This document shows, piece by piece, positions 19,425 through 55,619 of a stretch of 64,000 nucleotides of DNA. The position numbers were made by a program, and so were the translations under genes. Position 1 is the stretch's first letter. Each line of letters starts with the position of its first letter. The stretch comes from an uncultured Oscillospiraceae bacterium (GTDB lineage Bacteria; Bacillota; Clostridia; Oscillospirales; Acutalibacteraceae): positions 66,766-130,765 of the forward strand of contig USJL01000002.1 of assembly GCA_900555015.1 (NCBI GenBank), written 5' to 3'. Below the pieces are notes generated by a model. The model did not search any database, had not been told where the DNA came from, and was given only the letters and a program-made list of their open reading frames with translations.

Positions 19425-19464
19425 TTATTTCATAGATTCTTCATAAGCCTTAATCATTTTCTTA
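19425..19464 (-). pseudogene. C-terminal piece of the split SASP gene
   Basis: These bases encode KKMIKAYEESMK and the stop codon, the typical C-terminus of alpha/beta-type small acid-soluble spore proteins, where GGQMV is followed by KKMI. The piece is now the 3' end of the E1 recombinase frame. The matching middle piece ends at 42384 and the N-terminal piece is at 55542-55619. Confidence 0.8.
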
Positions 19465-21098
19465 CTATTGCTACCTGCACGGCTCGTAAGATTTTGGAGG
19501 GTTTTAGTGACTGTTGTTCCGGCTTTTAGATGTATCTCAAAGCGTGTTATTTCCTCGTCGGGATATACCGTAATATCGCTTATATATCGGTCAATAAATG
19601 CTCTGTCTATTTCCTCACCGTCAATGTGCTTTTCCGCCGCTTTCAGTATGGCTTTGATTTCGGCAAGCTCTTTTTTCATCTCTCGTTCGGTTTTTGATGT
19701 TTTGTTCAGGGCGTTTATTTTTTTCTCAATGTCCTTGATTTCGTTATCGCAGTCGGCAGTCATTCGTATGAATTCGCTGTCGTCCATTCTTCCGTCAGCG
19801 TTGTATTGTAATAACTTCGCTTTCATTTTTTGCCGTGTGATAAGTTCTTGATTCAGCCTGTTAAGCTCATCCTTGTTTTCGTTTGTGTCAAGGACTTCTG
19901 ACACAAGCTTCAGCACACACGCCGAGAGTTCCTCAATATGCTGTTGCCCCGATTTGAAAATATCTTCGATAATCGGCTTGATTTCACTTTCGTAAATCGC
20001 TCGGCTCGGACAGCTTGACGCACCGTGTTTTATCTTGCCCGAGCATACCCACTTTGAGATTTTCTCTCCGCCCTTGCTTACTGCGTCCTTGCGATAGTAG
20101 GGCATACCGCAGTGCGCACATATCAGTTTGCCTGTCAGCAGGTTTTGATGCACCGTCTTGTGCTGTGCCGTGATTACATCCTGGCTTCGCATATACAACA
20201 CTTCGTTTGCCTTGTCCCACAATTCCTCGCTGACGATTGCAGGTACTGTTTCACCCGTTTCATCTTTATACATAACCCATTCTTCCTCAGGCAAAAACTT
20301 TTGTTTTTTGGTGAACAGGTCAGTAATTCGCACCTTGTTTCCTGCATAGTAGCCTTTGTATTTCGGGTTGCGTATGATGTTGCTCATCGTTGAGTGAGAG
20401 AGCATTTTACCCTTAGAATTTCGTATTCCTTTTTGGTGAAAATGTTTTTCCATTTGCTTCATACTGAATTTTCCCGTGGCGTACATTTCAAACAGTTCTC
20501 GCACAAAGTCGGCTTGCGTTTCGTCAATCATCAGCTTGCCGTCTTTTTTGATGTAGCCGTACATATTGTTCGTGCCGAGTACAGTACCTTTTTTGATAGC
20601 CTGTTGATGACCGAACCGCACACGATTAGAGATTTTTCTCGACTCGTCTTGCGCCATAGATGACATAATCGTCAGCCTTAATTCGCTGTCCTCGTCAAGG
20701 GTGTTTATGTTGTCATTTTGAAAATACACAGCCACTCCGCTTGATAAAAGTTCACGGGTAAAGCGAATACTGTCCAGCGTGTTACGGGCAAATCTTGACA
20801 CCTCTTTGGTTACAATCAGGTCAAACATTCCTGCCTTTGCGTCCTCAATCATCTCGTTGAATCGCTCACGCTTTGCAGTCGATACGCCCGATATGCCCTC
20901 GTCAACATAGCCGTCAACATATTCCCAATTCGGATTTTTCCTGATGAAATCGGTGTAATATGTTATTTGGTTATCAAGTGAATTTAACTGAACATTAAAA
21001 TCCGTGCTGACACGAGCGTAAAATGTCACTCGCAAAGGCAGGTTCATAAAGTTAATATTTTCTTTTCTTATTCTCTCACGAGTTGAATATATATCCAT
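19425..21098 (-). CDS. Large serine recombinase of element E1, C-terminally fused to the SASP tail
   Basis: A 557-residue large serine recombinase: resolvase domain with catalytic serine in FYARVSTD, recombinase domain, zinc ribbon (CAHCGMPYYRK and CPSRA) and a coiled-coil region, as in integrases of clostridial elements. MDIYS at 21098 is the start, because AAAGGAG lies just upstream and the longer TTG frame begins inside that site. The last 13 codons (KKMIKAYEESMK and stop) are not recombinase sequence: they are the C-terminus of an alpha/beta SASP, joined in frame at the E1 crossover. In the excised circle, the frame would instead read into an open tail encoded at 42284-42386. Confidence 0.88.
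   Translation of the reverse strand: MDIYSTRERIRKENINFMNLPLRVTFYARVSTDFNVQLNSLDNQITYYTDFIRKNPNWEYVDGYVDEGISGVSTAKRERFNEMIEDAKAGMFDLIVTKEVSRFARNTLDSIRFTRELLSSGVAVYFQNDNINTLDEDSELRLTIMSSMAQDESRKISNRVRFGHQQAIKKGTVLGTNNMYGYIKKDGKLMIDETQADFVRELFEMYATGKFSMKQMEKHFHQKGIRNSKGKMLSHSTMSNIIRNPKYKGYYAGNKVRITDLFTKKQKFLPEEEWVMYKDETGETVPAIVSEELWDKANEVLYMRSQDVITAQHKTVHQNLLTGKLICAHCGMPYYRKDAVSKGGEKISKWVCSGKIKHGASSCPSRAIYESEIKPIIEDIFKSGQQHIEELSACVLKLVSEVLDTNENKDELNRLNQELITRQKMKAKLLQYNADGRMDDSEFIRMTADCDNEIKDIEKKINALNKTSKTEREMKKELAEIKAILKAAEKHIDGEEIDRAFIDRYISDITVYPDEEITRFEIHLKAGTTVTKTLQNLTSRAGSNSKKMIKAYEESMK
19462..19464. other. E1 left attachment junction
   Basis: Comparison with 42384-42386 shows a shared TAA (minus strand) at the boundary between recombinase and SASP coding sequence; the codon phase is the same on both sides. 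The identity is too short to place the crossover to the base, and a nearby partial match (AATG) leaves a few bases of uncertainty. Confidence 0.65.
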
Positions 21099-21225
21099 AT
21101 TTTTACTCCTTTCCAAGCAGACAATATCACAAATAATTTCTATTATCCAGCTTTATTTTACAGTATTTCACCCCTGCGTTCATTAGGGGATTGATACCTG
21201 TTTTGGTAATGTTTTACAGAGCTTT

Positions 21226-21465
21226 TCAGTTTATTTTTCCGTATCTGCGATTGACTTCCACGCTGATTTTTCCCATCAATTTGCGATAGGTTTTGTCGTC
21301 AATCGCATTTTGATTCAGCAGCGTATTTGCAAAATGCTGCATCCAAAGCTCCGTGCTGATTCTCTCATCGGCAATGTTTTGTGTATTGATTTTCGGATCA
21401 CTCCCGCTTGATTTTTCAATACTATTATTGCCTGATGCTTTAGAATTTATTTCCTTTGCTGCCAT
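21226..21465 (-). CDS. Small accessory protein upstream of the E1 recombinase
   Basis: A 79-residue protein with a polar N-terminus and two predicted helices (LWMQHFANTLLNQNAI and KTYRKLMGKISVEVNRRYG). It sits directly before the recombinase, the same position as the 69-residue gene in E2, and both start codons are embedded in the same GTTGCC-type hairpin. The function is unknown; a recombination directionality or regulatory role is a positional inference. Confidence 0.7.
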   Translation of the reverse strand: MAAKEINSKASGNNSIEKSSGSDPKINTQNIADERISTELWMQHFANTLLNQNAIDDKTYRKLMGKISVEVNRRYGKIN

Positions 21466-21483
21466 AAGGCAACACGCTAACTA
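21458..21483 (-). promoter_or_regulatory. Start-codon hairpin conserved between E1 and E2
   Basis: On the minus strand GTTGCC TTAT GGCAGC spans the ATG of the accessory gene, preceded by TAGTTAGCGT. The E2 counterpart at 44450-44475 has the same layout, which suggests translational control of the gene before the recombinase. Confidence 0.55.
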
Positions 21484-21570
21484 TGATTTTATATCTGCCT
21501 CCTTTAATTAGATTTGCCTTTCGTTGTAAATTTGTATTTCATATTAACCTCCTATTTTGCTCACAGGCTT

Positions 21571-24599: not shown

Positions 24600-25682
24600 A
24601 TGCCGGATAAGAATTGGCAATTTGAACTTGAAGAATATATAAAGCAAGGCGAACCCGACAAGGCTGAAAAAAGCGAAGCGTGGCAAACTGCCATCGGTTT
24701 GCAGGCTGTTGACGGGCTGAATACTTCTGACTATTTGTTAGACACCGCCAAAGAGCATATTGAAGGTAAAATCACCATTGACGAAGCTCAAAAGCGTATT
24801 CACAGTTACTATGAGCAGCGTACTGTACGCACCGAAACGGAAAATGAAACCAAAGAAGCGGACATTGTTTCGGCAAGAATTGCAAAGTTGTTGGGAGAAA
24901 AGGCGTTTCAATTTTCCCCTGCCGAGTGGCTTTCGATTCATCGCAGATTGTTCGAGGGCGTGTTCGGTCACGCAGGACAAATCAGGCAGTATAATATCAC
25001 AAAGAAAGAGTGGGTTCTGAACGGCGATACCGTTACCTATGCGGATTGGAACAGTATTAAGGAAACTTTGGATTATGATTTTTCCACCGAAAAACAGTTT
25101 TCTTATGAGGGTTTGTCCGTAGATGAAGCTGTAAAGCATTTGGCAAAATTTGCTTCCGATATTTGGCAAATTCACCCGTTCAGCGAGGGAAACACCCGTG
25201 CTACTGCCGTATTTATGATAAAATATATGAAAACATTCGGCTTTAGCGTAAATAACGATGCATTCGAGAAAAATTCTTGGTATTTTCGCAATGCGTTGGT
25301 TCGTGCTAATTATAATAACCTGCAAAAAGGCGTCCATTCCACAACTAAGTTTTTGGAAATGTTCTTTTCAAATCTTTTGTTAGATACGCATTATGAACTG
25401 AAAAACAGATATATGCACATTGATTATGTGGACGAAAGCAATTTCCAAAGTATCAGCCAAAAAGTTTCAAAGTATCAATTTGATACTTTAGACTGCACTT
25501 TAGAGGAACTTGCAGTTTTAGAATTAGTGGCAAAGAACCCGACAATGAAACAGCAAGAACTTGTAGAAGCAACCGGAAAATCGATTGCAACCATAAAGCG
25601 AATTATGAAATCCCTGCAGGATAAAAACTATATCCGCCGAGGAAACGGAAAAAGATACGGTAAGTGGGAAGTTTTGGTTTGA
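24600..25682 (+). CDS. fic: Fic-domain protein with N-terminal inhibitory region
   Basis: A 360-residue Fic protein. The core motif HPFSEGNTRATA lies near residues 192-203 and matches the HPFxEGNTR subclass, in which asparagine and threonine follow the glycine. The N-terminal 75 residues are a helical antitoxin/VbhA-like region (LQAVDGLNTSDYLLDTAKEH), and the C-terminal 60 residues form a winged helix (KQQELVEATGKSIATIKRI). Fic enzymes usually transfer AMP to target proteins. It lies in a defence cluster, directly before an Mrr-type nuclease. Confidence 0.88.
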   Translation: MPDKNWQFELEEYIKQGEPDKAEKSEAWQTAIGLQAVDGLNTSDYLLDTAKEHIEGKITIDEAQKRIHSYYEQRTVRTETENETKEADIVSARIAKLLGEKAFQFSPAEWLSIHRRLFEGVFGHAGQIRQYNITKKEWVLNGDTVTYADWNSIKETLDYDFSTEKQFSYEGLSVDEAVKHLAKFASDIWQIHPFSEGNTRATAVFMIKYMKTFGFSVNNDAFEKNSWYFRNALVRANYNNLQKGVHSTTKFLEMFFSNLLLDTHYELKNRYMHIDYVDESNFQSISQKVSKYQFDTLDCTLEELAVLELVAKNPTMKQQELVEATGKSIATIKRIMKSLQDKNYIRRGNGKRYGKWEVLV

Positions 25683-25706
25683 AATATAAGAATTGAGGTA
25701 TTAATT

Positions 25707-26612
25707 ATGAACTTAAAGACACTATCTTCGGAAGGTAAAATAGCATATTTAATTAAGCCGATATTAAAAGTGTTACAAGAAGCCGGCGGTCAATTAGAGC
25801 GCTCCGAAATAAAGGAACGCATTTCCGACTTGGATGACCAGATTGCAGAATATGCCGAGACAGAAAAGAAATCGAAGAAAACGGGTAATGTATATAAAGA
25901 ATTTAATTTCAAATTCAATTTTGCTATAAAAGATTTGTATTTTGCTGAATTATTAACATTTACAAACTCTTCTCCGATTACCTTGACCGAAAAAGGATTA
26001 TATCTTGATATTGACAGCTTGAATGTTGAAAAAGATATTATCGAAGTTTCGGCAAAATATTGGAACGAATTAAGCGAAAAGAACAGAAAAAACAAAGAAT
26101 CCGATTCAACAGAAAACGAGGAAGAACCGGAAGCGGAAGAAAAAATAAAGGACGATTTTAAGGAAAAACTTCTTGTCGCCATTTCTAAAATGTCACCTAA
26201 AAAATTCGAGGCTTTTTCAAGAGCTTTGCTTAATCGTATGGGTGTTGAATTTACCGAAAAAGGTGTTCAAATCAGCAACGACGGCGGAATAGACGGTTAC
26301 GGCTACCATACAGATGCAAACGATTTCAGAACAACCAGAGTTGTCATTCAATGCAAGAGATATAATGTTGCTCCGGTAAGAGAGCCCGAAATTAATCAAT
26401 TTTTAGGTGCAATGAATAAGTATCAAGCCGATTACGGAGTGTTTATCACAAACGGAAGATTTACAAATTCCGCAAGACAGGCGGCACGCGAAGGCTCACC
26501 CATTACATTGATTGATGGCAATGAATTAGTAAGATTAGTTATTAGATATGAACTGTACATTACACCTGTTAAAACATATGTGTTGGATGAGTTTTACAAT
26601 ACGGAGGAATAG
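25707..26612 (+). CDS. Mrr-family restriction endonuclease
   Basis: A 301-residue protein with an N-terminal winged-helix (Mrr_N, about residues 1-95), an acidic linker and a C-terminal PD-(D/E)xK nuclease. The catalytic block reads DGGIDGYGY then VVIQCKRY, giving the aspartate and QxK residues of Mrr enzymes. These cleave modified foreign DNA and can act as stand-alone type IV restriction. It is packed between fic and a HEPN/Abi gene, with spacings of 24 and 2 bases. Confidence 0.88.
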   Translation: MNLKTLSSEGKIAYLIKPILKVLQEAGGQLERSEIKERISDLDDQIAEYAETEKKSKKTGNVYKEFNFKFNFAIKDLYFAELLTFTNSSPITLTEKGLYLDIDSLNVEKDIIEVSAKYWNELSEKNRKNKESDSTENEEEPEAEEKIKDDFKEKLLVAISKMSPKKFEAFSRALLNRMGVEFTEKGVQISNDGGIDGYGYHTDANDFRTTRVVIQCKRYNVAPVREPEINQFLGAMNKYQADYGVFITNGRFTNSARQAAREGSPITLIDGNELVRLVIRYELYITPVKTYVLDEFYNTEE

Positions 26613-26614
26613 TT

Positions 26615-27475
26615 TTGAGTGTACTTTCATTTATCGAAAAGCAAACGATTTGCCGATTGTTTGGAATAAGTGATGGGTTTATATTTAAATACTGGAGCGA
26701 CAAGGGAGCCCACAACAAAAGCACAACTAAAGAGTTGATTTATGACTCTTGTGGGATAAACATTTTTGAAGATGCGGGTTACAAGGGCTTATCACAACAA
26801 AAATGTATACAGAAGATTTGGGATGAGTGTAGTCCGCAAATCATTGCAAAACTCTTAAAAACGTTATCAGATTATTTCTGCTTTAAGATGGGAACAGATT
26901 GGTGGTCTGATGAGGATAATTATGATTATCAACAAATTCAACATATTATAGAGCGATTGCAAACTCTCCAAACAGTTGAACTTCCAAAAGAAGAGAACAT
27001 TAAAAATCTCAAACTTCTTTTAGAAGATATTGAAGAAAATATTAAAAACGACAAGCCAGAATTGGCTGTTGACCGACTTCATACATTTGCATCAGAATAT
27101 TTGCGCAATTTGTGCCATACTCACTCAATTGAAACAACCGACTCTAAAGGTAACGAGTATCCGCTTCATTCACTCGCCGGAATGCTCAAAAAATGGTATG
27201 TTGATAATGCTTATTTTGATTCCGAATTTGCAGTTGTAGCTATTCAAAATTCCATTAACTTGTTTGATAAATTTAATGGTATACGAAATGACAATAGTGC
27301 TGCACATCCTAATGATTTGCTTTCAAAAGCAGAGGCAGAATATGCTGTTAGAATCATTGCGAATACATTAACTTTTATTGATAAATGTGAAAAAAGTAAA
27401 ATTAAAAAAGTTCAAACGCTTCCTTGGGGTGGCGGCATATTATACATAGTGCCCGACGAAGAATTACCTTTCTAA
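26615..27475 (+). CDS. Abi-C/HEPN-type abortive infection protein
   Basis: A 286-residue protein whose C-terminal half resembles the Abi_C family. It contains RNDNSAAH, an arginine followed six residues later by histidine as in HEPN ribonucleases, within a helical bundle (SKAEAEYAVRIIANTLTFID). The start overlaps the end region of the mrr gene, with TTG at 26615. HEPN toxins usually cleave RNA on infection; the activity here is inferred from the motif and the neighbours. Confidence 0.7.
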   Translation: MSVLSFIEKQTICRLFGISDGFIFKYWSDKGAHNKSTTKELIYDSCGINIFEDAGYKGLSQQKCIQKIWDECSPQIIAKLLKTLSDYFCFKMGTDWWSDEDNYDYQQIQHIIERLQTLQTVELPKEENIKNLKLLLEDIEENIKNDKPELAVDRLHTFASEYLRNLCHTHSIETTDSKGNEYPLHSLAGMLKKWYVDNAYFDSEFAVVAIQNSINLFDKFNGIRNDNSAAHPNDLLSKAEAEYAVRIIANTLTFIDKCEKSKIKKVQTLPWGGGILYIVPDEELPF

Positions 27476-28232: not shown

Positions 28233-29921
28233 ATGAGCACTAACATATCAAAGCAAAAGCGTGAGGATTTACTTGCTAAAATCAAGGAAATTCGCACTTT
28301 TATATCCAATGCGCCGCAGGACGAAAACACAGGCAATCTGCTTTCATATCTTTCCGACCTTGAAAAAGATGTCAACGGTAAAAAATACGGACTTGTTTTT
28401 GAGGAACACCGTGAGGAAATTGACGAGGTGCTTGATACGCATACGCCTGTTTTGACGGAAGACAGGGACTTGTTCATTGATAACGGCGGACAGATGAATT
28501 TTCTCATTGAGGGCGACAACCTTGCTTCGCTCAAATTGCTTGAAAAGACTCACAAAGGCAAAATTGACCTTATCTACATAGATCCGCCGTATAATACAGG
28601 AAATAAGGATTTTATATATGATGATTGCTATGTGGATAAAGTTGATTCATTCAAGCACAGTAAGTGGTTGTCATTTATGAGAAAACGATTGTATATCGCG
28701 AAATCGTTATTGTCTGAGAATGGAGCAATTTTTATCAATATTGACGATAAGGAGCATTCTCAACTAAAGTTATTATGCGATGACATATTTGGAGAATCTA
28801 ACTTTATGACAAGTATTCCTTGGCATAATCGCACCTCTATGCAAAATGATACAGATATTAGCGTTAATCACGAATATATATTGGTTTATGCAAAATACAA
28901 ACGTCAAGATAATAGAAGATTGAAAGACAGTAATAAGGAAATTTGGAATAATTTAAAAGGATTTACATTTATCCCGAAAGAGACAGATAAAAGTAAATTT
29001 TCAAATCCAGATAATGATCCTCGTGGATTATGGAAAGCAGATCCTTTTGATGCTCCAAATATCCGTCCTAATTTAACATACCCAATTACTAATCCAGTGA
29101 CAGGTGAACAATACCTTCCTCCAAGAGGAAGACACTGGCGAATTTCAAAAGAAAAATTTGCCGATGCCTATGCGAACAACCGTATAGTTTTCGGTAAAAA
29201 CGGAACAGGTAGACCTCAAATGAAAATCTTTTACAATGAGGTCAATTACAAAGGGAGTGTACCTGACACTTGGTTCGATGCACACATCTTCAGTACATCA
29301 ACACAAGGGAAAAAAGAGTTGTTAAAAATACTACCAAATACAAAGCAAATTTTCAGTACACCAAAGCCCATCGGTTTGTATGTTGAATTGCTAAAATTGA
29401 CTGCAAAATCAAATGCTACTATATTGGACTTCTTCGCAGGCTCCGGTACAACAGGTCACGCTGTTATGAAGTTGAATGCAGAGGACGGCGGCAACCGCAA
29501 ATTTATTCTTTGCACCAATAACGAAAACAATATTTGTCATGATGTTACCTATGAACGCATTAAGCGTGTGATTGATAAGGAAAATTATTCAGCAAGTCTG
29601 AAATACTACAAGGTGGACTATATTCCGATTTCAGACCGTATGTATTACGAATACGCCGATGAACTACTTTTACATATTCGTGAACTTGTTGAGCTTGAAA
29701 ATGGTGTAAACTTTACGGATAACGCTGAAATTGGCATTGTTCTGACCGAAGAAGAATTGGATGAATTTATTGAAAATACCGACTCTTTTGTAAAATGCCG
29801 CAAGCTGTATATGGGGCACGATGTTTTACCAACAGAAGAGCAAGAGAAAAAGTTGCAAGCACACAATATTGAAATCAGCATTATCCCCGATTATTATTAT
29901 CGTGACTTACAGGAGGATTAA
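28233..29921 (+). CDS. mod: Type III restriction-modification methyltransferase subunit Mod
   Basis: A 562-residue beta-class N6-adenine methyltransferase. Motif IV IDPPYNTG is at about residues 116-123 and the SAM-binding motif I DFFAGSGTTGHAV follows near residue 400, the order expected for type III Mod and EcoP15I-like enzymes. The central region (about 190-380) would hold the target recognition domain. It methylates one strand of an asymmetric site and delivers specificity to Res. The gene lies 2 bases after the DUF6680-like gene and shares an operon with res. Confidence 0.92.
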   Translation: MSTNISKQKREDLLAKIKEIRTFISNAPQDENTGNLLSYLSDLEKDVNGKKYGLVFEEHREEIDEVLDTHTPVLTEDRDLFIDNGGQMNFLIEGDNLASLKLLEKTHKGKIDLIYIDPPYNTGNKDFIYDDCYVDKVDSFKHSKWLSFMRKRLYIAKSLLSENGAIFINIDDKEHSQLKLLCDDIFGESNFMTSIPWHNRTSMQNDTDISVNHEYILVYAKYKRQDNRRLKDSNKEIWNNLKGFTFIPKETDKSKFSNPDNDPRGLWKADPFDAPNIRPNLTYPITNPVTGEQYLPPRGRHWRISKEKFADAYANNRIVFGKNGTGRPQMKIFYNEVNYKGSVPDTWFDAHIFSTSTQGKKELLKILPNTKQIFSTPKPIGLYVELLKLTAKSNATILDFFAGSGTTGHAVMKLNAEDGGNRKFILCTNNENNICHDVTYERIKRVIDKENYSASLKYYKVDYIPISDRMYYEYADELLLHIRELVELENGVNFTDNAEIGIVLTEEELDEFIENTDSFVKCRKLYMGHDVLPTEEQEKKLQAHNIEISIIPDYYYRDLQED

Positions 29922-29923
29922 AT

Positions 29924-44180: not shown

Positions 44181-44247
44181 TGGTGAAACCTCCTTGAAAA
44201 TTGCGACTCATATCCAACACGGAGTATATCACAAGAAGGATTTAATA

Positions 44248-44475: not shown

Positions 44476-44479
44476 ATAT

Positions 44480-45726: not shown

Positions 45727-45749
45727 AATAACTCTAAAGGAGATTGATT

Positions 45750-46088: not shown

Positions 46089-46102
46089 ACGGAGGTTATG
46101 TT

Positions 46103-46603: not shown

Positions 46604-46610
46604 ATAAAAA

Positions 46611-46645
46611 TTCAAGCCGAGAGGGGCGTCCTCTCGGCTTGAGTT
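46611..46645 (+). terminator. Terminator after the riboswitch operon
   Basis: CAAGCCGAGAGG pairs with CCTCTCGGCTTG around GGCGT, followed by a T run. A close copy ends the helicase gene at 55384-55418. Confidence 0.85.
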
Positions 46646-46689
46646 TTTTGTGTAACTGAATTTATTAACTGCATACAAGTTAATTATTG

Positions 46690-48351
46690 TTATTCAAAGT
46701 AATACACTCTTGTTTCATACGGGCGGAGCATAAAGCCGTTGCCCTGAACAGTGGGATTATCGTAATTACAAAGCATAGGTGTTCCCTTTTTCAAATCAAA
46801 GCCTTTAGGTGCTTCAAATGGTACCCGTTCATCACTAAAGGAATTAATTACAAGCAATCGCTTGCCCTTATAATTTCTTTCATAAACATATAGCTTTGAG
46901 GAGTTTTTGTAATGCTCCTTGTAATCGCCGTAAATTGCCACCTCATTTTCACGCTTAAATCTAATTAGCTTCTTATAGTGATTTAAGATTGAGTTTGGAT
47001 TTTTCTCTTCGTTTTCGGCGTTAATTTCGGTATAATTTTTGTTTACGGGAAACCAGGGCTTGCCTGTTGTAAAGCCTGCGTTTTCCTCGGAATTCCACTG
47101 AACAGGTGTTCTTGAGTTATCTCTTGTTGACTTAACTGCCCACTGCCAGCATTTTTCCTCGTTAAGATGCACCTTGTTTCGTGCGACATTGTAATTATTC
47201 TTTACGAAGCAATCCTCGTATTCGTCGAGAGAATCAAGCTCGGTATTGAGCATGCCTATTTCCTGCCCCTGATAAACAAAGGCTGTTCCTTGCTGAAGCA
47301 TATACATATTGGCAAGCATTTTGCCTGACTCTGTTCTGTATTTTTCACTGCCGTAGCGCGATATAATGCGCGGGTGGTCATGATTTTCGATATAAAGGGT
47401 ATTCCACGCTCTGCCGTTGATTTTTCTTTGCCAATCGGAAAAGGCTCTTTTCATTTTTCGCAAATCGAACTTCGTTTGAATATAATCAACCATAAAGCAA
47501 TCTGCCTCGATATGCTGAAAATGAAACATTAAGTCAAGCTCCTTATGGCGTTCGTCAATATAATTGAGCGCCTTTGCAGGAGTCATCATAGGAGCTTCAC
47601 CAACGGTAAAGCAGTCGTACATATCAGTTACCTTGCGGTATTCCTGAAGATACTGATGAATATTAGGCCCATCCATATAGTGCTCAATTCCGCAGGCGGC
47701 AGGAATAGGAAAGCCGTTTGGCAGACCCGGTCGCTTTGATATAAAGGTTATAACATCCTCACGGAAGCCGTCAACACCCATATCAAGCCAAAAGCGCATA
47801 ATATCCTTAACCTCCTCCCTTACCTTTGGGTTATCGTGGTTAAGGTCCGGCTGCTTCTTGGCAAACACATGAAGATAGTATTCGCCCGATTTTTCGTCCT
47901 GCTCCCATGCTCCGCCCTCAAAGCAAGAAAGCCAGTTATTCGGCGGACGCTTGCCGTTTTTCTTTCCCTTGCGCCAAATATAATAATCGTGATACGGAGA
48001 TTTTGGATCCTTTGAATTAATAAACCACTGATGCTCGTCGGAGGTATGATTAACAACAAGGTCCATAATAACCTTAATTCCTCTCTTGTGAGCTTCGTCT
48101 AAAACTCTTTTGAAAAGGTCGAGGTCGCCGTATTCGGGATTTATATTTTTATAGTCGGCAATATCGTAGCCGTAGTCGGCATTGGGCGAGGGATAAAGAG
48201 GAGAAAACCATATACAGTTACAGCCTAAATCCTTTATGTAGTCAAGCTTTGAGAGAACGCCCTGCAAATCGCCTATGCCGTCGCCGTTTCCGTCGCAGAA
48301 GGAGCGAGGCCAAATTTGATAAACAACTAATTCCTTGTACCAATCTTTCAT
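46690..48351 (-). CDS. GH13 alpha-glucosidase (oligo-1,6-glucosidase type)
   Basis: A 553-residue GH13 enzyme. The four conserved regions are visible: DLVVNHTS, GFREDVI with nucleophile D199, the acid glutamate in FTVGEAPM and the ENHDHPR block. The order and length match oligo-1,6-glucosidases, which hydrolyse isomalto-oligosaccharides and sucrose-like substrates in the cytosol. It forms an operon with the GPH symporter upstream on the minus strand (18 bases apart). It is cargo of E2. Confidence 0.9.
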   Translation of the reverse strand: MKDWYKELVVYQIWPRSFCDGNGDGIGDLQGVLSKLDYIKDLGCNCIWFSPLYPSPNADYGYDIADYKNINPEYGDLDLFKRVLDEAHKRGIKVIMDLVVNHTSDEHQWFINSKDPKSPYHDYYIWRKGKKNGKRPPNNWLSCFEGGAWEQDEKSGEYYLHVFAKKQPDLNHDNPKVREEVKDIMRFWLDMGVDGFREDVITFISKRPGLPNGFPIPAACGIEHYMDGPNIHQYLQEYRKVTDMYDCFTVGEAPMMTPAKALNYIDERHKELDLMFHFQHIEADCFMVDYIQTKFDLRKMKRAFSDWQRKINGRAWNTLYIENHDHPRIISRYGSEKYRTESGKMLANMYMLQQGTAFVYQGQEIGMLNTELDSLDEYEDCFVKNNYNVARNKVHLNEEKCWQWAVKSTRDNSRTPVQWNSEENAGFTTGKPWFPVNKNYTEINAENEEKNPNSILNHYKKLIRFKRENEVAIYGDYKEHYKNSSKLYVYERNYKGKRLLVINSFSDERVPFEAPKGFDLKKGTPMLCNYDNPTVQGNGFMLRPYETRVYYFE

Positions 48352-48369
48352 AATAAATTATATATCCTT

Positions 48370-49866
48370 TCAGTCTTTTTGTCTGTTTTCAGCATAGGGT
48401 GATTCCCCTGACTCTGCCAAGCCGTTTCTGCGAGCGTTAAGGTCACTTTCCACAAGTGCTCTTTTTTCCTTTGTATAGTTAACAAACAGAAGCGGAATTA
48501 TAAACAAAACGCTTGCAACGGCAGGTGTAAGAACTACAAGAGGCCAAATCCAGCTATCAAAGGCGTCTGTTTGAGTGCCTAAATAATTTGCCGCATTATC
48601 AATAGCCTTATAGCCGAGAAGATGAAGTGCAAGGGTTGCAAGTCCCGATGTTATGCCGCTTGAAATCTTTGTAAAGGAGGTTTGCATAGAAAAGGTAATG
48701 CCCTCTGTTCTCTTGCCTGTTTTCCACTCCATATAGTCAATACTGTCGCAAAAGATTGATGTTTGCGCTATTGACGACGCACCCGACGGAATACTGCCTA
48801 TGCCGATTATTATCATTGAAATCCACAGCCTTTTTCCCTCAAAGCCAACGAAAAATGCAATTGCTCTTGCAACGATATTAAACACCTGAATAAGTATAAG
48901 AACATTAACATATCCGCCAAGTCTTTTTTTCATCCAATCGGCAAACAACATTCCGATAAAGCTCGGCAAGCCGGTAATGATAAAGTAAATAGTTGTAAGT
49001 CCCAGCGCGCCGATAATTCCGTTTCCGAGAAAATCCGACGGAATTTCATACTTAAAGAAATATGTAACAAGCGAAATGCCAAATCCAAGCGAGCCGAAAA
49101 GATTTGAAAGCGTTACAAGCAAAAGCATTTTGTTTTTGAACAAAAGCAGAAAGCTTTCACGCAGAGTTTCCTGCTGCTCGTCCTTGTTGACGGCAATTCT
49201 TTCCCGGGCATATGAGCAACGGTAGCTGAGCATTGAGCCGCCTAAGCCGAATATAATCGCAAACACCAAGGTAACAAGCGACATACTCATTCCCTTTGCA
49301 TTGGCAATCATTTCAAGTGCCATAGGAATAACGGTACTGAAGGCACCGTAAACCATACTGCCGATAGTTCTTGACCACTGAACAAATCTGTCTCTCTCGG
49401 AGGAATTAGGCGATACTGCGGCGGTAATTCCCCACACGGAAACATCCTGAACGGTATATGCCAAATCCCAACAGATATACATTATGATGAAATACGATAC
49501 CCGAAGCCAAAGCAAATTCTCGTTTGTGCTGAACACAAGAAACAGCAAAACGGTAAACACACCGACGGGAAGCGGTGTGTATTTCAAAAACGGTCGCAGC
49601 TTTTCACCGTTTTTAAAGGTATGGCGGTCAATAAATGAGCCTACAATAGGGTCGTTAATACCGTCCCACACCTTCATAACAATAAGCAAAACAGAAACAG
49701 TAAGTGCAGGGAAAAGAGCAATATCCGTCATAAAATATGTAAAAAACGATCCGCCAATCAGCGAATAAACAAGATTTTGCCCCGAAAGACCTGCAAGAAA
49801 ATTTACAAGCTCTTTTTTAGAAACATACTTTTTTTCGGCATTTTTTTCAGATATACAATCTGCCAT
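48370..49866 (-). CDS. GPH-family sugar:cation symporter
   Basis: A 498-residue membrane transporter with about twelve helices. Family blocks include WDGINDPIVGSFIDRHTF near residue 70 and GIGSIPSGASSIAQTSIFCDSIDYMEW, as in MelB-type glycoside-pentoside-hexuronide symporters. It imports a disaccharide or oligosaccharide with Na+ or H+, presumably supplying the adjacent alpha-glucosidase. No regulator is adjacent. Confidence 0.88.
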   Translation of the reverse strand: MADCISEKNAEKKYVSKKELVNFLAGLSGQNLVYSLIGGSFFTYFMTDIALFPALTVSVLLIVMKVWDGINDPIVGSFIDRHTFKNGEKLRPFLKYTPLPVGVFTVLLFLVFSTNENLLWLRVSYFIIMYICWDLAYTVQDVSVWGITAAVSPNSSERDRFVQWSRTIGSMVYGAFSTVIPMALEMIANAKGMSMSLVTLVFAIIFGLGGSMLSYRCSYARERIAVNKDEQQETLRESFLLLFKNKMLLLVTLSNLFGSLGFGISLVTYFFKYEIPSDFLGNGIIGALGLTTIYFIITGLPSFIGMLFADWMKKRLGGYVNVLILIQVFNIVARAIAFFVGFEGKRLWISMIIIGIGSIPSGASSIAQTSIFCDSIDYMEWKTGKRTEGITFSMQTSFTKISSGITSGLATLALHLLGYKAIDNAANYLGTQTDAFDSWIWPLVVLTPAVASVLFIIPLLFVNYTKEKRALVESDLNARRNGLAESGESPYAENRQKD

Positions 49867-49960
49867 AGCTAAAACCTCCGTACAATCTTTATTACTATTA
49901 TACTATAATCATCTTTAAAAATAAAGTTTTTTTAGATATTTTTCACAAATAATAAAACCG

Positions 49961-50033
49961 ATGTGAAAATCACGAAATGGGAATTTATTTCATCGAAGAT
50001 CCCGACGGCTATTGGCTCGAAATTTTATCGTAA
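49961..50033 (+). pseudogene. 3' fragment of a VOC/glyoxalase gene
   Basis: The frame reads EMGIYFIEDPDGYWLEIL and a stop, almost identical at DNA level to the end of the intact VOC gene in E1 (23391-23452). No start or upstream part remains. The region 49867-49960 holds only the symporter promoter side, and 50034-50180 shows no gene. Confidence 0.85.
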
Positions 50034-50180
50034 TTCTTGATATATATTCTCAAATAATTAACTCCCTTGTAGCACAAAAATACACTACAAAGGAGTTTTA
50101 ATATCCGGACTAAATATTTATTTTAATGTTAAGGTTGGCAGATAACTAAAATATCGTGACAACTTTCAAAGCTATAATAG

Positions 50181-50582
50181 TCAGTATTTCTTACTAACAA
50201 TCAAATAGCAAATGTAATACAAAACAAGCATTACACAAATTATGCCGGCTGCTATTTGCATATAGGTCACTTTTGACATAATTAGGCAAATAATTGTAAT
50301 CGCCGCACAAATCATTATAAATGAATACGCAGCCCATGACCACGCCTTCATAGATATGAAACGATTTCTTTCATCGTTTGTCTTGGTATCAACCATTTCC
50401 TTGTACTCGCTATTAGTTTTGTATTTTATAGCTCTTATTAATTGAACCACACCAACACCTAACAAGCCACCACCAAAGCCAGCAAACAAGCTATTCACTT
50501 CGTTCATAAACACTAAAACAATTAAAACTATTCCAAGTATTATATATAGTGTATTGATAATTATATTTTTATATTCTTTCAT
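50181..50582 (-). CDS. Four-helix membrane protein paired with XRE regulator
   Basis: A 133-residue protein with four membrane helices and a cytosolic loop (YKEMVDTKTNDERNRFISMK) between helices two and three. Its start overlaps the stop of the XRE gene by one base, the usual arrangement of small XRE/membrane-protein pairs in clostridia. The function is not established. Confidence 0.75.
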   Translation of the reverse strand: MKEYKNIIINTLYIILGIVLIVLVFMNEVNSLFAGFGGGLLGVGVVQLIRAIKYKTNSEYKEMVDTKTNDERNRFISMKAWSWAAYSFIMICAAITIICLIMSKVTYMQIAAGIICVMLVLYYICYLIVSKKY

Positions 50583-50782
50583 TATAATTCCTCCTCAAAG
50601 CAGAACAAATCTTCAATTGATAAATGAAAATATTTTGCAATTTTATACGCAAGCAAAATTGATGGATTATATTTTCCATTTTCTAATGAAATAATAGTTT
50701 GTCTTGAAACGCCCATAGCACTTGCAAGTTCTTCTTGGCTTATGCTATTAGCACTTCGTAATTCTTTGATTTTGTTTTTCAA
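50582..50782 (-). CDS. XRE-family HTH regulator
   Basis: A 66-residue protein consisting of one helix-turn-helix (ISQEELASAMGVSRQTIISLENGKYNPSI is interrupted only by loop residues) and a short acidic tail. TTG 50782 is chosen because AGGAGTG lies 6 bases upstream. It is coupled to the four-helix membrane protein. Confidence 0.85.
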   Translation of the reverse strand: MKNKIKELRSANSISQEELASAMGVSRQTIISLENGKYNPSILLAYKIAKYFHLSIEDLFCFEEEL

Positions 50783-50993
50783 AAAAATCACTCCTAATTA
50801 TTATTTATTCTTCGAAGAAAATGTAAAGCGTCCTTTACAATCACAATATAGCATATAAATCCACAAATGTCAAGCATACTTTACATTTTTTGTTTACAAA
50901 TGTTGTCGTGATACCAAAATTATCTGCCAACTTTGTTTGCTAATGTTATATAAAAATGCATTTGAAATATTAATCGTGAATTGATAAACAATA

Positions 50994-51030
50994 AAACCGA
51001 GAGCGACTGAATCACTCTCGGTTATTTTTT
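50994..51030 (-). terminator. Bidirectional terminator between iron-sulfur and XRE genes
   Basis: AACCGAGAG pairs with CTCTCGGTT around a 9-base loop with T runs on both strands. It serves the minus-strand iron-sulfur gene that ends at 51045. Confidence 0.8.
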
Positions 51031-51044
51031 GATTGTCCCTTAAT

Positions 51045-51734
51045 CTACGATAATATTTTTCCGTCGGTTGAGATTGTTACAACCTGCCACGGAATGAATT
51101 TTCCACTGTTTTGAAGTGCTGTTTTAACTGCGTGTTCAATACCTCCGCAGCAAGGCACCTCCATTCTTACAACTGTTACGTTTTTGATATTATTATTTGC
51201 AATAATTGCAGTTAATTTGTCTGCATAATCAACATCATCAAGCTTTGGGCAACCTATTAAGGTAATCTTGTTTTTGATGAAATCGTTGTGGAAATTGCCG
51301 TAGGCATAAGCGGAGCAATCAGCAGCAACGAGGAGGTTTGCACCGTCAAAATACGGAGCATTTACAGGCACAAGCTTAATCTGCACAGGCCATTGTGAAA
51401 GCTGACTTGATACCGAAATATCGGCATTATCCACTTTCTTTTCGTGATTTATACTCATTGAGCGTGAACCCGGACAGCCTGAATGTGCGTGTTGCTTTGC
51501 TTTTTGACTTGCTTTAACCGCCGCCTCGTCATAAGCCGGAGCCTCTCGCATTTCAAAGGAAATTGCATCAACAGGACAGGCGGGCAGGCAATCTCCCAAG
51601 CCATCGCAATAGTCCTCTCTTGTGAGAACGGCTTTGCCATCTATCATACCTATTGCACCCTCGTGGCAGGCAGATACACATGCACCGCAGCCATTACATT
51701 TTTCTTTATCTATCTTAATGATTTTTCTAATCAT
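51045..51734 (-). CDS. 4Fe-4S ferredoxin-domain protein
   Basis: A 229-residue protein with two 4Fe-4S motifs at the N-terminus (CNGCGACVSACHEGA and CDGLGDCLPACPVDA), followed by a domain of about 150 residues containing CSAYAYGNFHND, IGCPKLDD and PCCGGIEHAV, with additional cysteines. ATG 51734 follows GGAAGAT. Such proteins are found in Firmicutes near hydrogen or corrinoid metabolism; the exact electron partner is unknown. Confidence 0.82.
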   Translation of the reverse strand: MIRKIIKIDKEKCNGCGACVSACHEGAIGMIDGKAVLTREDYCDGLGDCLPACPVDAISFEMREAPAYDEAAVKASQKAKQHAHSGCPGSRSMSINHEKKVDNADISVSSQLSQWPVQIKLVPVNAPYFDGANLLVAADCSAYAYGNFHNDFIKNKITLIGCPKLDDVDYADKLTAIIANNNIKNVTVVRMEVPCCGGIEHAVKTALQNSGKFIPWQVVTISTDGKILS

Positions 51735-51900
51735 AGGTATCTTCCTTTCATAATTTAGTGACCTCATTATACTATAAATCGTACTAAAATTCCACAGTTT
51801 TTCTATAAAAAACACGAGGTATGTTATGGAAAGAAAGCAACATAAAATAAGTATTTTGAAGCTAATAAATGCTTACAAAAAAGTAAAATTAATGAATAAA

Positions 51901-52023
51901 TCACTCAATTATTTCGCTTGCAGTTGCGTAAAATCTAATGCCGTTACTATACGCCTCAACAGTTATATATAAGTTATCATTTTTAATTTTCAGTATATCA
52001 TTTTCCTGCTTAATATTGTTCAT
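51901..52023 (-). CDS. 40-residue ORF divergent from the helicase gene
   Basis: ATG 52023, preceded by GAGGTAG, opens 40 codons (MNNIKQENDILKIKNDNLYI and onward to ASEIIE). The product is polar with alternating hydrophobic residues. It diverges from the helicase gene across 250 AT-rich bases that contain repeated GTAATNTTA-like tracts (52135-52225). It could be a regulator or antitoxin of the helicase locus, but this is unproven. Confidence 0.45.
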   Translation of the reverse strand: MNNIKQENDILKIKNDNLYITVEAYSNGIRFYATASEIIE

Positions 52024-52277
52024 TTTACTACCTCGATGCTCATTTCATTAGTGTAAACTTTCAATCTTTACACTATTGTATATTACATATAATTGCTTGT
52101 CAATTTATAATATAAGATTTGGTATTTAATTATTCAAACGATGTAATCTTATATTGAAAAGTGTAATATTACACATTGTAATCTAATATAGAGTTAGATA
52201 CTTGATTTATTATTATATTTAATGTAAACTTTAATTGGAATAATATGTAAAAAATCTATTTTGGTGGTGAGAGAGTT

Positions 52278-55200
52278 ATGAACAAAGTTTCAAGAGATAT
52301 TTTTAAAGCCATTCATGAAGGCAAATGGATTGCAATAGAATACAGAAATCAGCAAGGAAATACCACCAATTACTGGATAGGGATTAAAAATATTGAACCC
52401 TACTACAAGAAACTAATTGTCGATGGACTTAATGTTGCAACATCACAAATGGCAGAACTTAATTTGTTTTTTGACTCTATAGTTAACACAAATCTAATAG
52501 ACGGATCGTATTATCCTATAAACAAAAAGTTACTTGCCGATATAGAAGAACATTCATCAAGATATACTTTTATCTTTCATAATGTTACAAATCTAAAATT
52601 ACTTGATTATTACAGCGAATGCAATAAGCTTGACAGTACTCCGTACAGGAAAGAATACAAACTAATTGAAGAGCTTGATATTGATGTTATAGGAGACGGT
52701 GATTATCACTTAAACGAAAAACAGTTTGAAAAAATTGTAAAAACCTATAACATGAATGCCAAGAATTCAGGCAAAAATAAGATACCACGAGTAGTATCTT
52801 TGTGTATGAATTTATGCAGTATTCATACCAAAAAGGGACTTTATGTTCTTGCATATAAAAAGTTACTTTTCGATGTAAAAAATCATACTTTAACACAAGA
52901 CGATGAAGTTACTATTTGCAGAGAATTTACAGTTGATGGAGTTAAAATCAGTGCTCATTATTTCCTTGATGCTGATGAAATCCAATTACTTGACAATTAC
53001 GAGGAAAATGCAGAGCTGATAAAGGATTTGATTACAAAAAACAATCCTGAATACCGTGGCGTAGATGATATGCCGTATGTTATGGCACTTTCCAGAGACT
53101 TTACAATTAATCTTGATACGGAATATGAGGCTATTTTGGATATGTATGAAAATAACGAAGTTACATATCCCATCAAAGCATTTTTCGGAGATTTAACGGC
53201 AAAGCCGAGAAGAATTAAGGATTATCCGCTTGCACTGTATAATGACAAGGTAAATCTCGATCAATTACTTGCAATTCACAATGGCTTGAAATATCCTGTA
53301 CTTTATGTTCAAGGGCCTCCTGGAAGCGGTAAAACAAATACAATATTGAATACCGTTGTAACTGCATTTTTTAATAATAAGAGTGTTCTTATATCATCAT
53401 ATAATAATCACCCGATTGATGAAATATATGATAAGCTTTCTAACTTAAAATACAATGGTAAAACCATTCCGTTTCCTATAATACGACTTGGAAACGGCGA
53501 CAAGGTAAAAGAAGCAATAAAGCAAATTAGAAAATTATATGAGCAAACTCATAATATGAAGGTGTTTGATGCATCGCTTTCAAAAAAGAAAAATGATGAG
53601 GAACACAGAACAAAGGCTCTTAGCAATTTACTTCATCGATATGAAGAAAAGCTTGATATGAGTGAGCGAAGAGAGATGATTAAAACAATGCTTTCTTCTT
53701 CAAACAACTTGACTTTTCTTACGAATTTGCAGGGTGAACAGCTTAATAAAGTTAATAATGAACTTAAAGAAATCGGCAATATTACAGATGACGATGTTAA
53801 GCCATTAATCTCACAGGATAGATACGAACTTCTTAAATACCTTAATTTTACATCTGCAAAGTTCATTAAGCATATATCAGAGCCGAAATATGAAGAACTG
53901 GCAGACATTATTTTTAACAAAAATATTGATGAAGCCGCAAAGGATTTTAATGAATACATTTCTAATGATGAAAATTTCCAGAAGTTTATTAGAATTTTTC
54001 CTGTTGTTGCCACAACAAATATATCGGCACACAAATTGGGAGAGCCAAAACAGTATTTTGATATGGTAATAATGGACGAGGCAAGTCAATGTAATACTGC
54101 TGTTGCACTTGTACCTATTTTGCGTGGTAAACAGTTAATGCTCGTGGGCGATCCACAACAGCTAAAGCCGGTCATTTTGTTAGATGAAAAAAATAATTGT
54201 ATTCTAAAAAAACGATATAATGTTACAGATGAATATGATTATAGAAATAAATCTGTTTATCAAACCTTTCTTTCAGCGGATGCTGTCAGTGATGAGGTTT
54301 TGCTCAGTTTCCATTATCGCTGCCATCCTAAAATTATCGAGTTTAATAATAAAAAATATTATAATAACAAACTTAATGTTAAGTCTTCTTCTAAAGAGGA
54401 ACATCCCCTCGAATTCATTGATTGCAACAGTGACAATGTAATGATAAAAAACACTAATGAAAGTGAAGCAAGGGAGATTGTTCATTATGTAAAAACGCAT
54501 CCTGATAAAACGATTGCTGTAATTACACCTTTTGTTAATCAGCGAAATAAAATTCAAGAAGAGCTTAACCAAAACGGAATTACCAATGTTGAGTGTGGAA
54601 CTGTTCATGCTTTTCAGGGAGACGAAAAACAGGAAATTATTTTTTCTCTCGCATTATCAAGCAAAACAGGTGAAAAAACATATAACTGGCTTAAGAATAA
54701 TAAAGAGCTTATAAATGTAGCAACCTCAAGAGCACAAGAAAAGCTTGTTATAACAGGTGATAAAAATCAGCTTAATCGACTTCATAAACCGGGTGAAGAT
54801 GATGATTTGTTTGAACTTTGTAACTATGTTCGTTCAAACGGAAGAACAACTGTAACACAACGCGAACCCGAATCTCGTGCACTTGGTATAAAACCTTACA
54901 GCACAGAAACAGAAACTGTATTTCTTGAAACGCTGAATCATGCAATAAATGCGACGATGATAACAAGGTCAAGATATGTTGTTAAAAAAGAGGTGCCTAT
55001 CGCACAAGTGTTTTCTTCAACTGATGAAGTAAACGATTTGTTCTATACAGGGCGATTTGACTACATAGTTTATGAACGAGAGGGAAATGCACTTTTGCCT
55101 GTGTTTGCTATTGAACTTGACGGTAATGAGCATACTAATGACGGCAAAGTTATTGAGAGGGATAAGAAAAAACAGGAAATTTGCGATAAACACAATTTTC

Positions 55201-55289
55201 AACTTATTCGTGTGCCAAATAACTACGCTAGAAGATATAATTATGTAAAAGACATTTTATCAACCTTCTTTGAAAATGCAAGAAAATAA
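52278..55289 (+). CDS. SF1 (Upf1-like) helicase with C-terminal DUF2726-type nuclease-like domain
   Basis: A 1003-residue protein. The N-terminal 330 residues are unassigned. The SF1 helicase follows: motif I VQGPPGSGKTN (about 348-358), motif II VIMDEASQCN, LVGDPQQLKP, SFHYRCHPKI, VHAFQGDEKQE and NVATSRAQEKLVITGD. The last 120 residues match DUF2726 (RFDYIVYE, then AIELDGNEH and FQLIRVP), a PD-(D/E)xK-like fold. Such fusions occur as single-gene candidate defence systems. GGTGGTGAGAG precedes the ATG. It is isolated, with its own terminator, at the right end of E2. Confidence 0.87.
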   Translation: MNKVSRDIFKAIHEGKWIAIEYRNQQGNTTNYWIGIKNIEPYYKKLIVDGLNVATSQMAELNLFFDSIVNTNLIDGSYYPINKKLLADIEEHSSRYTFIFHNVTNLKLLDYYSECNKLDSTPYRKEYKLIEELDIDVIGDGDYHLNEKQFEKIVKTYNMNAKNSGKNKIPRVVSLCMNLCSIHTKKGLYVLAYKKLLFDVKNHTLTQDDEVTICREFTVDGVKISAHYFLDADEIQLLDNYEENAELIKDLITKNNPEYRGVDDMPYVMALSRDFTINLDTEYEAILDMYENNEVTYPIKAFFGDLTAKPRRIKDYPLALYNDKVNLDQLLAIHNGLKYPVLYVQGPPGSGKTNTILNTVVTAFFNNKSVLISSYNNHPIDEIYDKLSNLKYNGKTIPFPIIRLGNGDKVKEAIKQIRKLYEQTHNMKVFDASLSKKKNDEEHRTKALSNLLHRYEEKLDMSERREMIKTMLSSSNNLTFLTNLQGEQLNKVNNELKEIGNITDDDVKPLISQDRYELLKYLNFTSAKFIKHISEPKYEELADIIFNKNIDEAAKDFNEYISNDENFQKFIRIFPVVATTNISAHKLGEPKQYFDMVIMDEASQCNTAVALVPILRGKQLMLVGDPQQLKPVILLDEKNNCILKKRYNVTDEYDYRNKSVYQTFLSADAVSDEVLLSFHYRCHPKIIEFNNKKYYNNKLNVKSSSKEEHPLEFIDCNSDNVMIKNTNESEAREIVHYVKTHPDKTIAVITPFVNQRNKIQEELNQNGITNVECGTVHAFQGDEKQEIIFSLALSSKTGEKTYNWLKNNKELINVATSRAQEKLVITGDKNQLNRLHKPGEDDDLFELCNYVRSNGRTTVTQREPESRALGIKPYSTETETVFLETLNHAINATMITRSRYVVKKEVPIAQVFSSTDEVNDLFYTGRFDYIVYEREGNALLPVFAIELDGNEHTNDGKVIERDKKKQEICDKHNFQLIRVPNNYARRYNYVKDILSTFFENARK

Positions 55290-55383
55290 AAAGCTGTGGT
55301 TCAACTGATACTAATTGATATCAATATGTATCAGTTTATGATAAAATGAGTGTAGTAATTGCTTTTGAAAAAGTAAAAAATCG

Positions 55384-55418
55384 AGCCGAGAGGGGTGTCC
55401 TCTCGGCTCAAATTTTTG
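55384..55418 (+). terminator. Terminator after the helicase gene
   Basis: GAGCCGAGAGG pairs with CCTCTCGGCTC around GGTGT, with a T-rich tail. The sequence is a near copy of the one at 46611-46645. Confidence 0.85.
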
Positions 55419-55529
55419 CGGATATGTAGTGCAATTTTCGTTAATTTTATGTTTTTAATGTAAATAGGCGCCCACTATTCTGTTTTTTCGAGTCCCGAAA
55501 GTGGCTTAAATAGGGCGTTTTGAAATTTT

Positions 55530-55619
55530 TTAATGCAAAAAAACACCAACCTCTGCGGCAGCTTCCATCTTAAATCTGTTAAGAGCTTCTTTAGCTTCAG
55601 GTACTGTGTTTTTAGCCAT
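55530..55619 (-). pseudogene. N-terminal piece of the split SASP gene
   Basis: ATG 55619, preceded by GAGGTG, encodes MAKNTVPEAKEALNRFKM then EAAAEVGV, the N-terminus of an alpha/beta-type SASP. At the E2 core the frame passes into element sequence and stops after three more codons (FLH). The truncated 29-residue product lacks the whole DNA-binding core. The interval 55620-55774 should hold the SASP promoter but no box is clear enough to mark. Confidence 0.9.
55542..55554. other. E2 right attachment core
   Basis: AACACCAACCTCT, identical to 42455-42467. The distance between the two cores is 13087 bases. Confidence 0.88.

Follow-up and report, generated by a model that had tools for sequence, protein, structure and literature searches.

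A spore-protein gene cut at two recurring sites by large serine recombinase elements in gut Clostridia

The stretch analysed here, hereafter the window, comprises 64,000 nucleotides of an uncultured Oscillospiraceae bacterium (assembly GCA_900555015.1, contig USJL01000002.1, positions 66,766 to 130,765). It carries a gene for a small acid-soluble spore protein (SASP) that is split into three by two elements, E2 and E1, each with its own large serine recombinase (LSR2 and LSR1, respectively). SASPs in general are forespore proteins made under sigma-G. The pieces of the gene, the junctions (site 1 for E2, site 2 for E1) and the parts of the elements adjoining them are as follows.

55542-55619, minus strand: SASP codons 1-26 (N part), MAKNTVPEAKEALNRFKMEAAAEVGV; translation and comparison with 26 intact orthologues
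55542-55553, minus strand: outer copy of the 12-bp repeat of E2, GAGGTTGGTGTT (site 1); read directly
42467-55541: element E2, about 13.1 kb; span between the site-1 repeats
44248-44457, minus strand: 69-aa open reading frame (ORF) upstream of LSR2, candidate recombination directionality factor (RDF); matches in genomes G031, G028 and G010
42519-44180, minus strand: LSR2, 553 aa, with DUF4368; Pfam
42455-42466, minus strand: inner copy of the 12-bp repeat of E2; read directly
42386-42454, minus strand: SASP codons 27-49 (middle part), NLKQGYNGDLTSKQAGSVGGQMV; translation and comparison with orthologues
42384-42386, minus strand: TAA core at the right end of E1 (site 2); sequence reading
42284-42385, minus strand: in-frame continuation of the SASP middle part by 33 codons and a stop; this exact length in 13 of 14 left ends read at site 2
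19465-42383: element E1, about 22.9 kb; span between the site-2 cores
21226-21465, minus strand: 79-aa ORF upstream of LSR1, candidate RDF; recurs next to LSR1 at all 12 loci compared
19425-21116, minus strand: LSR1, 563 aa including 12 SASP residues; Pfam Resolvase, Recombinase and zinc ribbon
19462-19464, minus strand: TAA core at the left end of E1 (site 2); sequence reading
19425-19463, minus strand: SASP codons 50-61 (19428-19463), KKMIKAYEESMK, and stop (19425-19427), the C part, read in the same frame as LSR1; comparison with orthologues

The original prediction, made from the letters of this DNA, held that three minus-strand pieces join in frame as one alpha/beta-type SASP of 61 residues, and that two elements, of 13.1 kb (E2) and 22.9 kb (E1) and each with its own LSR, split this one gene. 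Positions and translations agree with it on both counts: the elements sit within the coding sequence of a sporulation gene. E2 is bounded by a 12-bp direct repeat and the ends of E1 have TAA alone in common, and the reading frame is exactly regained at both crossovers. Against 26 intact orthologues the joined SASP reaches a median amino-acid identity of 0.95; taken singly, the N part reaches 0.92, the middle part 1.00 and the C part 0.917. Since each piece is this close to the same 26 orthologues, the three belong to one gene and not to different paralogues. With the window's own pieces as queries, the runner-up stretches in its six frames reach 8/26, 9/23 and 6/12 identities. The prediction had missed that each of two genes, that of the E1 recombinase and that of SASP, bears the end of the other. 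The ORF of LSR1 reads in frame through the SASP C part, which is also the end of the recombinase gene.

Both elements encode their own site-specific recombinase, with Resolvase, Recombinase and zinc-ribbon domains by Pfam, and the motif Y-x-R-V-S is invariant across the LSR1-family alignment. We infer that the small ORF beside each LSR is a candidate RDF. The one adjoining LSR1 (77-79 residues) is 61-68% identical to the window's in 11 loci and 99% identical in G031, and ORF and LSR1 are kept together even in a 2.3-kb element (G052) that carries little else. The 69-aa ORF adjoining LSR2 is 86% identical in G031, 52% in G028 and 38% in G010 (partial, over 37 residues). Both begin with a similar GNN(S/T) stretch, and neither has a credible Pfam match. 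RDFs of known elements have 53 residues (CD1234) and 72 residues (the putative RDF of yin) (PMC10747680).

The window's SPFH gene (14920-16053) is 82% identical to that of a metagenome-assembled genome (MAG) called Eubacterium sp. RGIG4416 (G001, locus L006) and 63-85% identical to those of other loci; most of these 80 loci belong to MAGs of Clostridia living in animal guts, and the host was taken to be an uncultured gut member of that class. The set of 98 relatives of G001 was then searched with the joined SASP, and the genes were sorted into cut and intact from the match table and the fetched loci. A SASP was expected in relatives and is found in 83 of the 98, though not at a shared locus; Pfam PF00269 likewise matches 83, mostly at the same places. 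The gene is intact in 56 of them (two of these, G065 and G079, being only 53-54% identical), cut in 24, frameshifted in one and unclear in two. Eight genomes are cut at site 1 alone, after about codon 26 (G001, G010, G016, G028, G037, G042, G059 and G077), thirteen at site 2 alone, after about codon 49 or 52 (G009, G018, G024, G027, G032, G035, G049, G052, G054, G057, G081, G090 and G096), and three at both (G031, G041 and G017). Two elements in one SASP gene, which had been put forward as a new arrangement, are thus confirmed but not unique to the window: G031 has them, and so, probably, do G041 and G017, where the site-1 cut rests on the N-part junction because no LSR2 homologue is found at E 1e-100. 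With G015 and G023, seen just as a SASP C part joined to LSR1 and lying beyond the 83 matches, 26 of the 85 genomes with SASP evidence carry a cut gene. A wider draw gave a SASP match, cut and intact genes together, in 333 of 394 genomes of the order.

Both halves and the intervening element lie on one contig in G037 (12.4 kb), G028 (23 kb) and G077 (36 kb) and, for site 2, in G057 (41.7 kb), G032 (26.8 kb), G081 (30.4 kb) and G052 (2.3 kb); the N half alone is seen in G001, G016 and G059. The unclear cases, G019 and G029, have contigs that end within the SASP gene. We considered whether such ends (G019, G029, G042 and G027) reflect a mix of excised and integrated states, and rejected it: the ends of G029 overlap by exactly 55 bp, as assemblers produce, and those of G019 differ in sequence. 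Conserved k-mers common to species would explain the breaks. Stops in the N- or C-half matches of G016, G017, G028 and G031 were likewise set aside, as they lie past the crossover, on the element side, and so not in the SASP. In G045 (C226:8711-8891, L130) the single SASP holds no element but seems to be frameshifted within a run of As, which may be a sequencing error or mark a pseudogene. In a separate observation, the protein P0186, an E1-type cut SASP with its tail, represents 425 contigs from several sources; the cut state is therefore common in some gut species.

Destruction of a redundant SASP, which the prediction had offered as one outcome, finds no support: in the draft assemblies of the 24 cut genomes that have a SASP match, a second SASP was not found, and every PF00269 match there is one of the pieces. 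Seven uncut genomes have two or more PF00269 matches (G006, G063, G065, G069, G071, G087 and G093). Furthermore, SpoIVA is found in 82 of the 98 relatives and in all cut genomes but G009 and G023 (24 of 26), and SpoVAC in 94 of the 98 and all 26. An empty site with the same neighbours, also expected, was not found: one of 14 proteins flanking the window's gene was matched in the compared loci (44%, L210), and a search of 118 genomes with the protein at 18389-19303 gave a single weak match (29%, G018). The genomic context of the SASP gene is not conserved.

Each site has its own LSR family. LSR1 homologues are present in 18 of the 98 relatives (E ≤ 1e-100) and in 22 of the 394 genomes of the order (E ≤ 1e-120), sets that overlap by three genomes to give 37 in all. 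Read by eye over some 12-16 residues, LSR1 is in frame with a SASP-type C-terminus in 32 of these 37. In two others (G081 and G171) it is inverted beside the SASP N part, two (G062 and G446) have unrelated ends, and in G018 the end is hidden by Ns. LSR2 homologues were found in 5 of the 98 relatives and 6 of 275 genomes, nine genomes in all, and the SASP 3′ half adjoins LSR2 in eight of the nine; it was not found beside LSR2 in G185. In a protein-database search with LSR1, 112 of the best 120 of 7566 matches are exactly 557 residues long and the SASP C-terminus is present in 115, a count that the query favours because it carries the SASP end itself. These results show two recurring sites, each with its own LSR family, in related gut Clostridia.

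The two inverted cases are LSR1-type elements lying in opposite orientation at the same SASP site (G081:C32:87163-117618, loci L209 and L210; G171, locus L200). The far junction of G081 also bears the SASP C part, and such insertions perhaps arise via a changed or palindromic core. An LSR1 98% identical to the window's, SASP end included, is also encoded by a human faecal scaffold (MT837325.1, L279), a 7.1-kb record labelled bacteriophage.

At site 2 the N half of the SASP reads on into the element, in frame. The extension is exactly 33 codons long in 13 of the 14 site-2 ends read (the window included), the exception being the inverted G081; G027 is not among these ends, as its contig stops at the site. 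The same length recurs in 108 of the best 120 of 7969 database matches to the SASP-plus-tail protein, again a count favoured by the query, which carries the tail. A comparison with uncut LSRs indicates where this extension comes from. An uncut homologue in a 100-kb IMG/VR contig (L001, the same as L226) ends in ...RTGHTIKNILPIRNISFTRVNRRVDSHTETYRFSVGVRI, which by eye is of the same type as the window's tail, NVMCPVRTVQFQRTNWTKNNQLQPITYEFCIAV. A scan of viral contigs with a 17-sequence alignment of the LSR1 family gave 52 loci, 51 of which were read (L224 on). By eye, the LSR is joined to a SASP-like end in eight (L224, L225, L228, L231-L234 and L242), is inverted beside SASP in two (L229 and L230), and has a native tail in at least twelve (L226, L227, L235-L241, L243, L247 and L274, some of them duplicates); the remainder are more distant LSRs or unreadable. 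The LSR1 family includes phages, since a phage-type DNA polymerase is encoded in L001 and ribonucleotide-reductase and tail-fibre-like proteins in L005 (PHROG scan of ten proteins, six of them without a match or matching unknown function only).

From the uncut homologues we infer that the attP of E1 lies inside its recombinase gene; integration would therefore swap the C-termini of recombinase and SASP. The SASP would gain a 33-residue recombinase tail and the recombinase the last 12 residues of the SASP, the extension being likely, by comparison with the uncut homologues, the recombinase's own C-terminal tail. Estimates of the ratio of nonsynonymous to synonymous substitution rates (dN/dS) were obtained for the extension in 65 of 78 pairs, with a median of 0.43, a range of 0.02-1.07 and 47 of the 65 at or below 0.6. 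A predicted fold of a native-tailed LSR (mean predicted local distance difference test score, pLDDT, 74; predicted template modelling score, pTM, 0.38) says little about the tail, because residues 526-566, which include its start, are below pLDDT 50.

The SASP codons appear to stay constrained in the cut genes: their median dN/dS is 0.07-0.09, against 0.04-0.06 in intact genes, and there is no stop in the compared SASP part from each of 16 other cut genes. As proof of function the dN/dS is weakened, since the insertions may be recent. Between the window and G031 the ends of E1 are about 96% identical over 4.2 kb and 1.2 kb and a 2.2-kb stretch of cargo is 95% identical, most other E1 cargo has no match over 150 bases, and protein identity is 99% for LSR1 and 92% for LSR2. 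As the E1 ends are alike while cargo and SASP differ, E1 has probably moved between hosts and swapped cargo.

The reading that we favour, and consider somewhat probable, is that two LSR elements occupy neighbouring sites in one SASP gene and that their precise excision would restore it, most likely at sporulation and in the cell that forms the spore. Excision is plausible because the recombinases are complete, candidate RDFs lie beside them and the sporulation genes are kept. The small ORF product (69-79 residues), made in sporulation, would switch the LSR from integration to excision, and precise excision of both E1 and E2 would yield a restored SASP gene. The prediction had left mother cell and forespore side by side. 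By reasoning only, the forespore lineage is where excision would help the spore: SASP coats DNA in the forespore, so that to be of use excision would have to occur in the spore's own lineage and mother-cell-only excision would be no help. It would then take place in the forespore or shortly before septation, and the excised element would either have to be carried along as a circle inside the spore, inserting again when the spore grows out, or have to be acquired anew from neighbours. That being without SASP can be costly is indicated by Clostridioides difficile 630-delta-erm, which forms spores at a level 5 log10 lower once both of its SASPs are lost (PMC11392383).

A stronger form of this proposal can be drawn, which we regard as doubtful. 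In it the system would be reversible, skin-like and on the forespore side, with circles in the spore and re-insertion at outgrowth; the SASP-ended LSR would excise and the native-tailed LSR integrate, the tail-bearing SASP fragment would be disposed of, and two such systems would be stacked in one 61-codon gene. If true, spore resistance would depend on two mobile elements.

Several observations weigh against developmental excision. Searches for the E1 attP gave no match, whether with the window-type pattern (viral contigs and 274 loci) or with a shortened one allowing at most two mismatches (217 genomes). A strict sigma-G consensus matched none of the 50 usable SASP upstream regions among 51 extracted, the other being only two bases long; the blocks conserved upstream of LSR1 in 13 loci are assignable to no sigma factor, and neither SASP nor LSR1 nor the small ORF could be given a sporulation promoter. 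The E2-type small ORF has no match beside LSR2 in G037 or G077 (E 1e-3). Two order-level LSR1 homologues, both among the 32 joined to a SASP-type end, have internal stops (one in G286, two in G118), and 18 of the 65 tail pairs have a dN/dS above 0.6, up to 1.07. No SASP match is found in 15 of the 98 relatives and no SpoIVA match in 16, and because the genomes are drafts, failure to find a second SASP does not prove that there is none. The E1 ends of the window and G031 are about 96% identical although their SASP middle parts show 7 differences over 69 bases; the insertions may therefore be recent, and the low dN/dS may reflect only too little time for decay. Finally, excision in the forespore would tend to strip the element from the line of descent.

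Some of these points suit an alternative that we consider unlikely but the best of those weighed, namely that E1 and E2 are ordinary islands or phages that land in a highly conserved gene and break it, the host making poor spores or none until a chance loss, with no developmental timing. E1 has probably moved between hosts with much of its cargo changed, phage-like contigs of the LSR1 family exist, and neither a circle nor a sporulation promoter was found. Set against this, the cut genomes keep their sporulation genes, no stop interrupts the portion of SASP compared in any of 16 further cut genes, the small ORF and LSR are kept in an element of 2.3 kb, and 26 cut genes in 85 genomes is common for a harmful state.

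The constancy of the 33-residue tail, in frame at site 2, allows another reading, in which it stands in for the lost SASP C-terminus and the protein works without excision, as happens when an element supplies its target gene with a new 3′ end. We hold this to be improbable. The tail resembles the recombinase's own C-terminus, which would explain its conservation, and what it displaces, the final 12 residues of SASP, is conserved among intact genes. Moreover, reading frames cut at site 1, after codon 26, stop within a few codons (window, G016, G017, G028 and G031), so that the tail cannot rescue the window's gene. Lastly, that SASPs are as a rule forespore proteins speaks against excision in the mother cell with a mother-cell role for the restored gene, which we think very improbable. 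Indeed, although SP-beta and the skin element of C. difficile are excised there (PMC4191935, PMC5025042), the SASP gene sspC of Bacillus subtilis is made in the forespore under sigma-G (PMC8270828).

On structural grounds, E1 and E2 would belong among the intervening elements of sporulation genes, such as skin, SP-beta, vfbin, vrin, gin and yin. The cut genes sigK, spsM, spoVFB, spoVR and gerE act in the mother cell (PMC4191935, PMC5025042, PMC5595907). Leaving such a gene is free of cost to the element, as the mother cell dies in any case; where the gene is needed in the spore, the element has to be cut out of the heritable chromosome. New here are a forespore gene as the target, two occupied sites in one gene and the in-frame exchange of recombinase and host ends. 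A search of titles and abstract openings in the open-access literature found no report of an element-cut SASP gene.

Closest in kind is gin in gerE of Bacillus cereus ATCC10987 (PMC5595907), a non-phage island of 28.6 kb with serine recombinases in a very small sporulation gene (225 bp), with a short overlap at its ends like E1 and E2, and excised through GirC and GirX. It differs in being one element at one site in a mother-cell gene and in that its rearrangement has been demonstrated, whereas that of E1 and E2 is predicted from sequence; an exchange of coding ends, as between E1 and SASP, is not described in the part of that report at hand. SP-beta in spsM of B. subtilis is likewise an LSR element whose precise excision restores a sporulation gene, but it leaves the mother-cell chromosome only and the spore keeps the prophage (PMC4191935), whereas SASP is a forespore gene. 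The skin element in sigK of C. difficile combines a serine recombinase with a small RDF, CD1234, in a mother-cell gene (PMC5025042); the RDFs of E1 and E2 are candidates. The yin element in yabG has a recombinase and a putative 72-aa RDF, and its circular and integrated states coexist within one culture, but it is reported as unique to one strain (PMC10747680), whereas the SASP elements recur over many genomes and at two sites. As for the exchange of ends, mycobacteriophage BPs has its attP in a phage coding sequence, and its integration alters a protein C-terminus with the loss of 33 residues (PMC4557955). In BPs the altered protein is the repressor, whose lost end carries a degradation tag; in E1 it would be the recombinase, with a host protein receiving the lost end. 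Many LSRs, too, target one site in a single conserved gene, a prolyl isomerase (PMC10083194).

Cut SASP genes in 26 of the 85 related gut Clostridia with SASP evidence bear on the formation of resistant spores by which gut bacteria are transmitted, and also on the persistence of mobile defence islands, E1 carrying Hachiman-like and type III restriction genes. The exchange of C-termini offers a handle on how an LSR might sense its integration state and is a source of many natural attB/attP pairs. The cargo of the two elements is as follows.

24600-27475, plus strand: E1, Fic, Mrr-type and Abi_C proteins; Pfam and PADLOC, Abi_C by Pfam only
28233-32484, plus strand: E1, type III restriction-modification; MTase_III 1e-121, REase_III 4e-20
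32502-35490, plus strand: E1, Hachiman-like pair HamA and HamB; PADLOC HamA 8e-10, HamB 4e-100
46690-49866, minus strand: E2, alpha-amylase and sugar transporter; Pfam
52278-55289, plus strand: E2, AAA helicase with DUF2726, partial MkoA match; domain and defence-model match

E2 also carries a ferredoxin-type protein, and E1 a Mor-type activator (41776-42069) and a marginal tape-measure match (40879-41718; 24.1 bits, cut-off 23). No clear capsid, tail or conjugation gene is present among the scanned proteins of the two elements.

Around the SASP gene, a 93-residue ORF (55775-56056, minus strand) lies directly upstream of its promoter region and looks like a truncated Fic-type protein, with no Pfam match. 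An inverted repeat of the type TTTGCAGGGCG...CGCCCTGCAAA, a possible conserved leader hairpin, stands in the SASP leader of many relatives (L152, L153 and others of L087-L146, for example), with a weaker form in the window (55620-55720). A TIR-TPR protein (16216-17817, minus strand) lies near the SPFH gene together with a helix-turn-helix (HTH) gene, a neighbourhood that recurs in many of the 80 SPFH loci. SASP-like genes also occur in phages: Ruminococcus phage NatCom_28775 (PV036440.1, 7295-7465; L281) has an intact one of its own, 81% identical to the joined SASP over 57 residues, and so do SPO1-like Bacillus phages have a SASP-like gene. A fragment within the E1 of G031 (L220:5563-6488) matches the small ORF of E2 at 92% over 24 aa and, at 49%, the HTH gene next to that ORF, which suggests a trace of exchange or nesting between the E1 and E2 families.

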